DNA of 35,242 nt from Prevotella sp. Its GTDB lineage: Bacteria; Bacteroidota; Bacteroidia; Bacteroidales; Bacteroidaceae. The DNA lies in NCBI GenBank assembly GCA_017417465.1, contig JAFPZD010000007.1:1-35242 (forward strand), given 5' to 3'. Below, one piece after another: positions 156-28,862 of this stretch. The notes beneath the pieces were generated by a model that did no database searches, had not been told where the DNA came from, and saw nothing but the letters and a program-made list of their open reading frames with translations. The translations under genes were made by a program, and so were the position numbers. Each line of letters opens with the position of its first letter. Within the stretch, counting starts at the first letter, position 1.

Positions 156-1721
156 ATGGACACAAACAACATGATACGCAAATATCCAATAGGGATACAG
201 AACTTTGAGAAGATAAGACGTGAAGGGTATGCGTACGTCGACAAGACGGCACTGATGTACAAGATGGTGTCGGAGGGCTCATATTACTTCCTGAGCCGTC
301 CACGCCGCTTCGGCAAGTCGCTGATGCTCTCCACGTTAGAGGCGTTCTTCGAGGGGAAGAAAGAGCTGTTTCAAGGACTGGCGGTGGAACAGGCTGACTG
401 GGAGTGGAAGAAATATCCTATCATGCACCTGGACCTGAACGTCAAAAAATATGAGACCAAGGAGGACTTATATAAAATCCTGAACCGACATCTTGAGCAG
501 TGGGAACTGTCGTTTGACAGTCCGTACGCTGACCGTGATCTGGAGGAGCGCTTCCTGCATGTTGTGGAACGTGCCTATCGGAAGACTGGAACAGAGGTCG
601 TGATTCTGGTGGATGAATATGACAAGCCTTTGTTACAAGCCATTGGCAATGATGCTCTTCAAACGGAATACCGCAACACGCTGAAAGCATTCTATGGCGT
701 ATTGAAGTCGTGCGACCGCTATATCAAGTTTGCATTCCTGACGGGTGTAACGAAGTTTGGCAAGGTAAGTGTGTTCAGCGACTTGAACAACCTGATTGAT
801 ATTTCGATGTTGCCCCAGTATGGCAGCATTTGCGGTATCAGCGAGCAGGAGCTTCGGAAGAATTTCGATAGTGCCGTCACTGAGTTGGCAGATGCCAATA
901 ACATGACGAAAGAGGAATGCTACGATCGGCTGCGCCTTGACTTTGACGGCTACCGTTTTAACGAGTATACGAATGAAGGGATGTACAACCCCTTCAGCGT
1001 GCTCAACACGCTTTCCTACAAGGTGTTCCGCGACTACTGGTTCGAGACGGGCACACCGTCGTTCCTCGTCTACCAGCTGAAGAAGACGGGCTATTCCCTG
1101 GAAGCGATGACCCAAGAAGAACTGTCGGCAGACACGCTGAACAGCATTGATATTATGGACGAGAACCCGCTGCCGCTGCTCTACCAGAGTGGATACCTGA
1201 CGCTGAAGAGCTACGACCGCAGGTTTGGCACTTACCAGTTGGGGTTCCCAAACCGTGAGGTGGAGGAAGGATTTATCAAGTATTTGTTGCCGTTCTATAT
1301 GCCAAAGGTAAATGATAAAAATGCCTTTTCTGTTATTAGTTTTGTTAAGGACGTTGAACGTGGTGACGCCGAGGGATTCATGCGCAGACTCGAGGGGTTC
1401 TTTGCCAATGGCGACTATCAGGTAATGGGAAACATGGAGATCTATTTCCAGAACACGCTCTATGTGTTCTTCCGATTGTTGGGGTTCTATGTGGATGTGG
1501 AAAGGCACACCTCCAATGGCCGCATGGACATCCTGATTCAAACGCCCCAATATGTCTATATCCTTGAACTGAAACTTGACCAGAATGCTGACGTTGCCCT
1601 CAGGCAGATAGAGGAGAAAGGCTATGCCCTACCCTTCGCCTCCGACCCGCGCAAGCTGTTCAAGATCGGCATCAATTTCTCTACGGAGAAGAAGTTGATT
1701 GACGACTGGAAAATCTCTTAG
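156..1721 (+). CDS. AAA-ATPase-like / PD-(D/E)XK nuclease-domain protein, copy 1
   Basis: The 521-residue product has the architecture of the Bacteroidetes AAA-ATPase-like family (N-terminal AAA_ATPase-like domain, C-terminal PDDEXK_9-type domain). A degenerate P-loop, RPRRFGKS, lies at residues 48-55. A Walker B, VVILVDEYDK, has D153-E154, and a sensor-like FLTGVTKF follows at 194-201. Near the C-terminus GRMDI (D458) and ELK (E471, K473) give the D...E-x-K signature of the PD-(D/E)XK fold. The ATG at 156 is chosen because the paralogue begins with the same residues (MDTNN) and the promoter covers the earlier TTG. The family is abundant in gut Bacteroidetes but its biological role is not established; defence and mobile-element functions are speculation. 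There is no signal peptide, so it is probably cytoplasmic. Confidence 0.9.
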   Translation: MDTNNMIRKYPIGIQNFEKIRREGYAYVDKTALMYKMVSEGSYYFLSRPRRFGKSLMLSTLEAFFEGKKELFQGLAVEQADWEWKKYPIMHLDLNVKKYETKEDLYKILNRHLEQWELSFDSPYADRDLEERFLHVVERAYRKTGTEVVILVDEYDKPLLQAIGNDALQTEYRNTLKAFYGVLKSCDRYIKFAFLTGVTKFGKVSVFSDLNNLIDISMLPQYGSICGISEQELRKNFDSAVTELADANNMTKEECYDRLRLDFDGYRFNEYTNEGMYNPFSVLNTLSYKVFRDYWFETGTPSFLVYQLKKTGYSLEAMTQEELSADTLNSIDIMDENPLPLLYQSGYLTLKSYDRRFGTYQLGFPNREVEEGFIKYLLPFYMPKVNDKNAFSVISFVKDVERGDAEGFMRRLEGFFANGDYQVMGNMEIYFQNTLYVFFRLLGFYVDVERHTSNGRMDILIQTPQYVYILELKLDQNADVALRQIEEKGYALPFASDPRKLFKIGINFSTEKKLIDDWKIS

Positions 1722-1857: not shown

Positions 1858-3498
1858 ATGGACACAAACAACAAGATACGCAAATATCCAATAGGGATAC
1901 AGAACTTTGAGAAGATAAGACGTGAAGGGTATGCTTACGTCGACAAGACGGCACTGATGTATAAGATGGTGTCAGAGGGCTCGTATTACTTCCTGAGCCG
2001 TCCACGCCGCTTCGGCAAGTCGCTGATGCTCTCCACATTAGAGGCGTTCTTCGAGGGGAAGAAAGAGCTGTTTCAAGGACTGGCGGTGGAACAGGCTGAC
2101 TGGGAGTGGAAGAATTATCCTATCATGCACCTGGACCTGAACACAGCAAAGTATGATAGTGAAGTGGCTTTGGACCATATGCTTGAAGAATTCCTCGCTC
2201 GGCAAGAAGATCTCTTTGGACGTAACGAGCATGAACGCTCTTACGGTTTGCGATTCCAAGGGGTGTTACGAAGAGCTTTTGAAAAGACGGGATTGCGAGT
2301 GGTCGTCTTGGTAGATGAATACGACAAGCCCCTTTTGCAGTCTATCGGTAACGAGGCGTTGCAAACGGCATACCGCAACGCGCTGAAGGCTTTTTACGGT
2401 GCTCTGAAGTCGTGCGACCGCTATATCAAGTTTGCATTCCTGACGGGTGTAACGAAGTTTGGAAAGGCTGCGATTAAGCGAGAGCAGAGTGGAGCTTGCT
2501 CCAACTCTGCCGAGCGTGAGCAGGCTCGACCGGAGGTCAAGGTAAGCGTGTTCAGCGACCTGAACAACCTGATTGATATTTCGATGTTGCCCCAGTATGG
2601 CGGCATTTGCGGTATCAGCGAGCAGGAGCTTCGGAAGAATTTCGACAGTGCTGTAGTTGAATTGGCAGATGCTAATAACATGACGAAGGAGGAGTGCTAC
2701 GATCGGCTGCGCCTTGACTTCGACGGCTACCGCTTTAACGAGTATACGAATGAAGGGATGTACAACCCCTTCAGCGTGCTCAACACGCTTTCCTACAAGG
2801 TGTTCCGCGACTACTGGTTCGAGACGGGCACGCCGTCGTTCCTCGTCTACCAACTAAAGAAGACGGGCTATCCTTTGGAAGCGATGACCCAAGAAGAGCT
2901 GTCGGCAGACACGCTCAACAGCATCGATATCATGGACGAGAACCCGCTACCGCTGCTCTACCAAAGTGGATACCTGACGCTGAAGAACTACGACCGTGAG
3001 TTTGGCACTTACCAGCTGGGGTTTCCAAACCGTGAGGTGGAGAATGGGTTCATTAGGTACCTGCTACCATTCTACACGCCGAAAACGAAAGATAAGAACA
3101 CCTTCGCCATACCACAGTTCATCAAGGATGTGAGGAATGGTGACGCCGAGGGATTCATGCGCAGACTTGAGGGGTTCTTTGCCAATGGCGACTATCAGGT
3201 AATGGGCAACATGGAGATCTATTTCCAGAACACGCTCTATGTGTTCTTCCGTTTGTTGGGGTTCTATGTGGATGTTGAAAGGCACACCTCCAACGGGCGC
3301 ATGGACATCCTGATTCAAACGCCCCAATATGTCTATATCCTTGAACTGAAACTTGACCAGAATGCTGACGTTGCCCTCAGGCAGATAGAGGAGAAAGGCT
3401 ATGCCCTACCCTTCGCCTCCGACCCGCGTAAGCTGTTCAAGATCGGCATCAATTTCTCTACGGAGAAGAAGTTGATTGACGACTGGAAAATCTCTTAG
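1858..3498 (+). CDS. AAA-ATPase-like / PD-(D/E)XK nuclease-domain protein, copy 2 with a 25-residue insertion
   Basis: A 546-residue tandem paralogue of the gene at 156-1721 with the same P-loop (RPRRFGKS), Walker B (VVVLVDEYDK) and C-terminal D...ELK nuclease signature. The first ~95 residues and the last ~120 are nearly identical to copy 1. Two windows differ strongly: roughly residues 96-148, between the P-loop and Walker B, and ~20 residues before the nuclease domain. The whole 25-residue length difference is one insertion after the lysine of TKFGK, encoded by 2467-2541. Identity continues into the 3' non-coding repeat, so the duplicated unit includes that tail. The pattern suggests tandem duplication followed by gene conversion of the ends. 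Start ATG has AGGAAG upstream. Function is unknown, as for copy 1. Confidence 0.9.
   Translation: MDTNNKIRKYPIGIQNFEKIRREGYAYVDKTALMYKMVSEGSYYFLSRPRRFGKSLMLSTLEAFFEGKKELFQGLAVEQADWEWKNYPIMHLDLNTAKYDSEVALDHMLEEFLARQEDLFGRNEHERSYGLRFQGVLRRAFEKTGLRVVVLVDEYDKPLLQSIGNEALQTAYRNALKAFYGALKSCDRYIKFAFLTGVTKFGKAAIKREQSGACSNSAEREQARPEVKVSVFSDLNNLIDISMLPQYGGICGISEQELRKNFDSAVVELADANNMTKEECYDRLRLDFDGYRFNEYTNEGMYNPFSVLNTLSYKVFRDYWFETGTPSFLVYQLKKTGYPLEAMTQEELSADTLNSIDIMDENPLPLLYQSGYLTLKNYDREFGTYQLGFPNREVENGFIRYLLPFYTPKTKDKNTFAIPQFIKDVRNGDAEGFMRRLEGFFANGDYQVMGNMEIYFQNTLYVFFRLLGFYVDVERHTSNGRMDILIQTPQYVYILELKLDQNADVALRQIEEKGYALPFASDPRKLFKIGINFSTEKKLIDDWKIS
2467..2541 (+). repeat. 75-bp palindromic insertion, in frame within copy 2
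   Basis: Present in copy 2 and absent from copy 1 at the same codon boundary. It carries a hairpin: GCAGAGTGGAGC (2484-2495) pairs with GCTCCAACTCTGC (2498-2510) with one bulged A. It is flanked by AAG on both sides and adds exactly 25 codons. Its core GGAGCTTGCTCC resembles the GAGCTTGCTCG core of the 89-bp repeats near 28.7 kb, and its end (GGAGGTCAAG) resembles theirs (GGAGCGCAAG). Confidence 0.8.
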
Positions 3499-28664: not shown

Positions 28665-28862
28665 AAATCGTCAAATCGTAAATTACTTTCGGCGCAGCCC
28701 AAATTGTAAATTGGACTCCGAGCTTGCTCGCCTGAGCACCTACGGAGCGCAAGAAATCGTCAAATCGTAAATTACTTTCGGCGCAGCCCAAATTGTAAAT
28801 TGAACTCCGAGCTTGCTCGCCTGAGCACCTACGGAGCGCAAGAAATCGTCAAATTGTAAATT
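28665..28862. repeat. 89-bp tandem duplication upstream of metA
   Basis: Two full units (28665-28753, 28754-28842) and the start of a third. Each contains AAATCGTCAAATCGTAAATT, GGCGCAGCCCAAATTGTAAA and the palindromic core GAGCTTGCTCG followed by ACGGAGCGCAAG. The third unit ends just before the metA start. This fills the 304-bp gap; no riboswitch is recognisable. Confidence 0.9.

Follow-up and report, generated by a model that had tools for sequence, protein, structure and literature searches.

A 75-bp three-hairpin repeat of Prevotella and related genera that occurs in frame within conserved genes

Of two tandem paralogous genes in a Prevotella genome, one is longer by exactly 75 nt. The segment responsible is with high probability a copy of a palindromic repeat of the Prevotella group that is small, mobile and non-autonomous and would persist within genes by the mechanism proposed below. 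The window analysed here (35,242 nt) is one entire contig (G000:C249) of a 4.4-Mb genome in 278 contigs, labelled G000. Direct comparison of the two ORFs confirms the preliminary description of this DNA, according to which the paralogues can be aligned and their whole length difference is a single insertion that is flanked by AAG on both sides, adds 25 codons and leaves the frame intact. The insert lies after residue 203 of the longer protein, at the extreme end of the ATPase-domain match. The junction reads TTTGGCAAG/GTAAGTGTG in copy 1 and TTTGGAAAG[GCTGCG...GGTCAAG]GTAAGCGTG in copy 2. The register of the insert is ambiguous, and a comparison of 58 copies favours the first of the two placements given in Table 1, in which the right AAG belongs to the host; a covariance model matches the window element at 2461-2545 with 109.5 bits.

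Table 1. Coordinates of the paralogous genes, the inserted element and its hairpins in the window
Feature	Positions	Strand	Description
Tandem paralogue without insert (copy 1)	156..1721	+	521 aa; AAA-ATPase_like + PDDEXK_9
Host gene (copy 2)	1858..3498	+	546 aa; AAA-ATPase_like (PF09820) + PDDEXK_9 (PF08011)
Palindromic coding element	2464..2538	+	75 bp, AAGGCTGCG...GGTC; from paralogue comparison and 58-copy alignment
Same element, register of the preliminary description	2467..2541	+	Alternative placement of the ambiguous ends
Hairpin 1	2484..2510	+	GCAGAGT-GGAG-CTTG-CTCC-A-ACTCTGC; apical stem most variable, covaries
Hairpin 2	2511..2528	+	CGAGC-GTGAGCAG-GCTCG
Hairpin 3	2529..2537	+	ACC-GGA-GGT
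Host AAG (Lys) codon, right junction	2539..2541	+	Insertion target is AA; from 58 copies and empty sites

The 75-bp segment is a derived insertion in copy 2. The site is covered by all 80 relatives fetched for the empty paralogue (86 matching segments), without a single inserted residue, and because none of them carries the segment and copy 1 is empty, the segment represents a gain in copy 2. Relatives of the window protein belong for the most part to Prevotella and further Bacteroidales, with many rumen MAGs among them, and the best of those fetched shows 82% identity, in a set from which records very close to the window's genome are possibly absent. The reverse history considered in the preliminary description, in which the protein family had the segment ancestrally and copy 1 lost it by deletion, has a negligible probability: the segment is missing from all 80 relatives, the same DNA is present in unrelated genes, and nothing was found in its favour.

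The preliminary description also proposed a search for empty sites in orthologues, and these were found at all three host genes examined, i.e., the window gene, a glutamine synthetase III gene and a PurF-like gene. The glutamine synthetase III gene of genome G022 carries the element; among 30 fetched loci, 28 are empty, one is the filled gene itself and one contains another 30-nt stretch. In G000, the PurF-like gene contains a family member of 72 nt. Here, the 30 fetched loci comprise one filled site, four empty ones (L306, L307, L333 and L334), one with 27 nt and 24 with an unrelated 75-78-nt stretch. The empty loci include the closest relatives of the filled gene, so the stretch counts as an insertion with respect to these nearest relatives and not to the whole genus; the PurF-like protein thus varies naturally at this site. 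PurF-like relatives are present in 51 of 60 genomes, and in about 20 further genomes the PurF-like match is split at the insert point with its halves adjacent in the DNA, according to match coordinates only.

The ends and the target of the element were defined in an alignment composed of the window copy and 57 of 59 references, L070 and L105 being excluded as near-copies of L038 and L104. The element measures 75 bp in 54 of 59 full-length copies, begins with AAGGCTGCG and ends with GGTC; these two ends are not inverted relative to each other in the 58-copy alignment, i.e., the element has no visible terminal inverted repeats. The left triplet is AAG in 51/58 copies, while the right side starts with AA in 56/58, followed by G (34 copies), A (15), T (5) or C (4). 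Because the third bases on the left and on the right differ in many copies, at most AA is duplicated, and a classical MITE was discarded as an identity on account of this and of the lack of inverted ends. Insertion is directly before a host AA dinucleotide. Copies in genome G055 lie within host repeats, where the sequence runs ...attg/AAGGCTG...CATC/AACattg. Subfamilies with the left end AAAGGTACG or AAAGTTACG are found at several loci (among L206, L208, L209, L212, L214, L216, L221 and L222) at TGCAAAGGTACG/TGCAAAGTTACG or similar sequences. The promoter box of Bacteroidota is TAnnTTTG, and the TGCAAAGGTACG/TGCAAAGTTACG target resembles it on the other strand; the element may thus insert at promoters.

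The hairpin announced in the preliminary description is present, in the form of three adjacent hairpins and not of a single palindrome. Over the 58 copies, changes on both sides of the stem occur in 10/11 pairs of hairpin 1 (93.5% of cells paired), in 1/5 pairs of hairpin 2 (95.8%) and in 3/3 pairs of hairpin 3 (97.1%), whose stem reads AAC/GTT, AGC/GCT, GCC/GGC, TCC/GGA or ATC/GAT in other copies. The three hairpins together display compensatory change in 14 of 19 pairs, with 94.7% of cells paired. Slid control structures reach 21-35% pairing, and none of 500 shuffles attains any of the five measures; the structure was drawn from the same 58 sequences, which gives it an advantage over its slid versions in pairing but not in compensatory change. 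The folding energy of the single window copy is unexceptional (z -1.18, with 24/200 shuffles folding equally well) and was dropped as proof of structure. It is too weak for this purpose, so the evidence for the structure is the covariation over the 58 copies.

The element belongs to a dispersed hairpin-repeat family which combines, as protein-coding palindromic repeats do, a hairpin with many copies. The 75-bp query finds 11 places in its own genome by BLAST (E <= 0.01) and matches 118 of 200 genomes of the genus, its own included (E <= 1e-4). The covariance model built from the 58 copies, with 150 candidates scored per genome, returns 50 matches in G000, 60 in G178, 54 in G055, 22 in G044, 132 in G049 and 98 in G063 (E <= 0.01). 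At the level of the taxonomic family, it matches 63/151 genomes and 16/30 genera at E <= 1e-6, under stricter filters than those of the genus search; many of the genomes sampled are fragmented MAGs. Several copies are arranged in tandem at 75-bp intervals. In a viral collection, four stretches contain an exact piece of the element, while no match was detected in a plasmid collection at E <= 1e-5, nor any known RNA family of Rfam in positions 2300-2700 of the window. Three related viral stretches (L385, L386 and L388) contain the element in frame +0 of an ORF whose N-terminal part, by eye, resembles the MutS N-terminal domain. In G208, a genome of another genus, a region of 8.5 kb without any 100-aa ORF (L335, 3316-11850) is made up of long direct repeats in a mosaic arrangement, and several of these repeats include a family member; the model matches this cluster seven times in L335 and twice more in L336. 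An integron-like (attC-type) array was considered for this region and rejected, since the stretch lacks 100-aa ORFs and consists of a repeated mosaic instead.

Kinship within the window itself is not borne out. The preliminary description related the insert to non-coding repeats of 89 bp and 49 bp, the former present at 28665-28842 as two tandem copies (99% alike) with a GAGCTTGCTC palindrome. The best local match between the element and the 89-bp repeat is the 10-mer GAGCTTGCTC alone, and 34 of 1000 shuffles of that repeat score as high. The covariance model gives no second match in the whole window up to E = 5, and by this model the 89-bp repeat is not a member of the family; for the 49-bp repeat, this same whole-window search is the only evidence.

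The distribution of the element over reading frames is strongly biased within recognisable genes. A first set of 108 matches was reduced to 77 unique elements, some of them partial matches (both copies of L016, and L017) or assembly-edge repeats. Candidate ORFs were required to extend at least 10 codons on both sides of the element and to contain at least 120 codons in all, and the 60 ORFs obtained were all scanned with Pfam (E <= 0.001). Those with a Pfam hit carry the element in frame +0 in 27 cases, in -1 in three, in -2 in one and in +1 in one, against six in +0 and 22 in other frames for those without; no other-frame ORF overlapping a Pfam-hit +0 gene has a Pfam hit of its own. Once the three UmuC and the two GltB loci are merged by their common sites and the window gene is added, the distinct hosts with a Pfam hit number 30, with the element in +0 in 25 of them and in other frames in five (binomial p = 4e-12 relative to the frame openness of 37 full-length copies). 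The +0 peptide is KAAIKREQSxACxxSAEREQARPKVK. Its hosts in this set include Eco57I, PurF-like, FecR, outer-membrane barrel, UmuC (three loci, one site), BT4734-like, SNF2, ApbA, HATPase_c_4, NuoB-type Oxidored_q6, glutamine synthetase III, M28 peptidase, LysR, 5'-nucleotidase, AsnB, aldo/keto reductase, methyltransferase, GltB (two loci, one site), DUF2779, acyl-ACP thioesterase, LPG synthase C, metallo-beta-lactamase fold, DUF2023 and DUF4298 proteins, the PurF-like Pfam hits being below Pfam's own cut-off in both sets. Copies in other frames of real genes occur in UmuC (L020), AlkZ-like (L027), GNAT (L058) and DUF2271 (L106) genes. In some hosts the insert is close to the end of the ORF, as in the NuoB-type gene (13 codons before the stop), and in the DUF2023 host and a +1 FecCD host it is near the ORF start, possibly upstream of the true start codon.

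A second set yielded the same picture. It consists of 40 further loci taken in list order from the search of the 200 genomes of the genus, places at contig ends or already fetched being skipped, and provided 44 matches. From these, 27 distinct candidate ORFs were obtained, each of which was scanned with Pfam. The element is in +0 in 16 of the 17 ORFs with a Pfam hit, the exception being L407 (+1, 14 codons from the ORF start), and in +0 in one and in other frames in nine of those without. The check proposed in the preliminary description, for further copies in the same frame within genes, thus has a positive outcome in both sets. New +0 hosts are M3 peptidase, type I restriction protein, DUF3987, thioredoxin-like, AAA_14/DUF4143, GH43, GNAT, NUDIX, LMW phosphatase, IspD, Vsr (with two tandem elements) and SnoaL proteins. 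PurF-like, GltB and M28 genes were hit again at sites other than those of the first set, and LPG synthase at a similar one; the insert is near the ORF end in L392 and L398. Both sets stem from a survey seeded from one +0 coding copy, and some ascertainment is possible. Six of 18 copies from other genera lie in longer +0 ORFs; they are outside the Pfam scan and enter none of these counts.

Stop codons do not explain the bias, since the three other open frames are about as open as +0: among 37 full-length copies outside Pfam-verified +0 genes, some of which lie within other ORFs, frame +0 is open in 73%, +1 in 84% and two minus frames in 89% and 68%. The +0 frame is the most hydrophilic, with a mean GRAVY of -1.25 versus -0.37, 0.15 and 0.47 for the other open frames. 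A length divisible by three was rejected as evidence of coding constraint, given that 33 of these 37 copies are also 75 bp long. The bias is demonstrated only for the AAGGCTGCG subfamily, to which the copies of the two sets are close. In a sample of 67 model-found copies, mostly of other subfamilies (73 matches from G000, G055, G063, G044 and G178, minus the weakest six), only 17 lie in a longer ORF, assigned without a Pfam scan, and these are distributed as three in +0, 11 in -2, one in -1 and two in +1. Subfamilies other than AAGGCTGCG look mostly intergenic, and many of the -2 ORFs may be due to chance, as nearly all -2 ORFs of the first two sets lack a Pfam hit.

These observations are most simply accounted for by the purging of frames that would add a less hydrophilic stretch. 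The element would insert in any orientation and phase; where the AA opens a codon for Lys or Asn and the element runs in the sense direction, 24-25 very hydrophilic residues (K-AAIKREQSxACxxSAEREQARPKV-K/N) would be added. Proteins would tolerate this +0 stretch, allowing such insertions to survive, while insertions in other frames would bring in either a stop codon or a peptide of lower hydrophilicity, and most of them would be lost. The insert would then be translated, and its hairpins would be kept by selection for mobility rather than for the protein. An alternative in which the insert is skipped in translation or removed from the RNA, and is hence absent from the protein, could draw on the conserved hairpins within coding sequence and on the precedent of the bypassing elements of yeast mitochondria. 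It is nevertheless very improbable, since the frame would not matter if the insert were skipped, whereas +0 is used in most hosts although other frames are about as open, and this is the most hydrophilic frame; the absence of an Rfam match in the region also speaks against it.

Conservation of the insert at shared sites adds a complication to the proposed tolerance and purging. Four pairs of copies share a gene site between different genomes, and in every pair the insert is less diverged than the host codons upstream of it: 4/25 versus 23/60 codons in GltB, 5/25 versus 37/60 in UmuC, 1/25 versus 8/60 in the HATPase_c_4 type, and 0/25 versus 31/60 in a sigma-factor-like pair, recognised by eye, from two genera (L345 1457-1541 and L348 1525-1609). 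The comparison is ungapped, and the downstream part of GltB is out of register. Such low change does not follow from simple neutral tolerance. It could reflect recurrent insertion into one site, conversion among copies, transfer of the gene, or constraint acting on DNA and peptide. One might also suppose that the insert confers a useful property on host proteins and is positively selected, as low change in all four pairs would suggest. This is improbable, given that host functions are very diverse, that most examined orthologues have no insert, and that the structural constraint on the DNA lowers change as well.

Mobility, which we infer for the element, would be due to a transposase supplied in trans, possibly an enzyme of the single-strand (HUH/Y1) type. 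Searches for PF01797 in the own genome, in 20 element-bearing genomes and in 200 genomes of the genus, along with an examination of RAYT flanks, did not reveal a mobiliser. One specific form of this idea identifies the element as a REP-type repeat that would be moved by a transposase of the Y1/HUH family, a RAYT (TnpA_REP). The hairpins, the lack of terminal inverted repeats, the duplication of AA at most and the fixed junction dinucleotide are all in keeping with it, and RAYT subclasses 2.4 and 2.6 occur in Bacteroidetes, REP insertions within tnpA_REP genes being reported for subclass 2.4 in the part of the source available (PMC6006769). Moreover, the element is present in 76/111 RAYT-positive versus 42/89 RAYT-negative genomes (odds ratio 2.4, p = 0.004, kinship among genomes being ignored), i.e., 76 of the 200 genomes have both, 42 the element only, 35 RAYT only and 47 neither. 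Against a RAYT stands the fact that these 42 of the 118 element-bearing genomes have no PF01797 match, including G063 and G178 with their 98 and 60 model matches. The element was found at E < 1e-10 in only two of 30 RAYT loci, away from the RAYT ends, and several RAYT loci display, by eye, other palindromes beside the gene. No RAYT gene flanked by the element was seen among the 30 loci; two further weak matches (E 0.07 and 0.28) were obtained there, and L129 and L132, RAYT loci with an element nearby, were judged on reading to be chance neighbours. Mobilisation by RAYT is unlikely. In the genome of the window, two PF01797 (Y1, RAYT-like) genes (L009 800-2380 and L010) lie, by eye, among different palindromic repeats.

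The likeness to the protein-coding palindromic elements of Rickettsia, drawn in the preliminary description for a different bacterial group, is supported by the same-frame copies and the empty sites. Like the Rickettsia and Wolbachia elements (RPE and WPE), the Prevotella-group element is a short hairpin-forming repeat that occurs both in intergenic DNA and in frame within conserved genes; on sequence grounds, it shares with protein-coding palindromic repeats their in-frame position in such genes and their empty sites in orthologues. In the accessible portion of PMC2229807, RPEs are described as stem-loops of 105-146 bp with terminal inverted repeats, and the insert in Rickettsia gmk is reported to be translated in a host protein that works; the RPE/WPE type of coding palindrome is also covered in the excerpt of PMC4224334. 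The Prevotella-group element differs in its length of about 75 bp, its three side-by-side hairpins, its lack of terminal inverted repeats, its fixed AA junction and its tandem arrays, and it resides in Bacteroidota rather than in obligate intracellular Alphaproteobacteria. As far as these partial sources describe the RPE families, it is outside them by length, architecture and host group.

Other known repeats are also only partly comparable. REPs share small hairpins, high copy number and the lack of terminal inverted repeats, but they measure only 20-40 bp and are tagged GTAG or CGTC in the available part of PMC3733652, and no examined RAYT locus is bounded by the Prevotella-group element. 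The enterobacterial MITEs ERIC/RU-1 and YPAL/RU-2 are small non-autonomous repeats that sometimes form in-frame gene fusions (PMC2229807, in part); they have other sequences and lengths of about 100-200 bp, and most have terminal inverted repeats and/or target duplications. The coding palindromes of Methanocaldococcus jannaschii (Suyama 2005) and PARCELs are, like the Prevotella-group element, palindromic DNA with coding potential, according to the portion available of PMC2996958, a text in which 'prevotella' and 'bacteroid' occur 0 times. Within Bacteroidales, a MITE of Porphyromonas gingivalis is likewise a small non-autonomous repeat, yet it has a minisatellite inside an inverted-repeat element, and is not a three-hairpin unit, as far as the description in its title goes (PMC4596501); a repeat survey of P. 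gingivalis also exists (PMC5771137). No description of the element or of Prevotella coding palindromes was found in literature titles and the starts of abstracts, a scope that excludes most subscription papers and the original RPE papers.

In the available parts of PMC2229807 and PMC2996958, the discussion of in-frame palindromic elements centres on Rickettsia and Wolbachia, along with one archaeon and certain enterobacterial MITEs. With its size and its filled and empty versions of widespread enzymes, the Bacteroidota family offers many natural before/after experiments on how proteins absorb inserts, and the question of how such elements move would become testable in another bacterial group. 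For annotators, the family would account for the odd 25-aa insertions that recur in Prevotella-type proteins. A broader reading is tentatively entertained, with somewhat less than even confidence: the element may represent a mobile lineage spread across an entire taxonomic family within Bacteroidota, independent in origin of the Rickettsiales elements and possibly still active, that adds one and the same hydrophilic 25-residue peptide again and again to enzymes of core metabolism and DNA repair, at the same gene sites in different genera. If true, this reading would imply a site-preferring mobilising enzyme.
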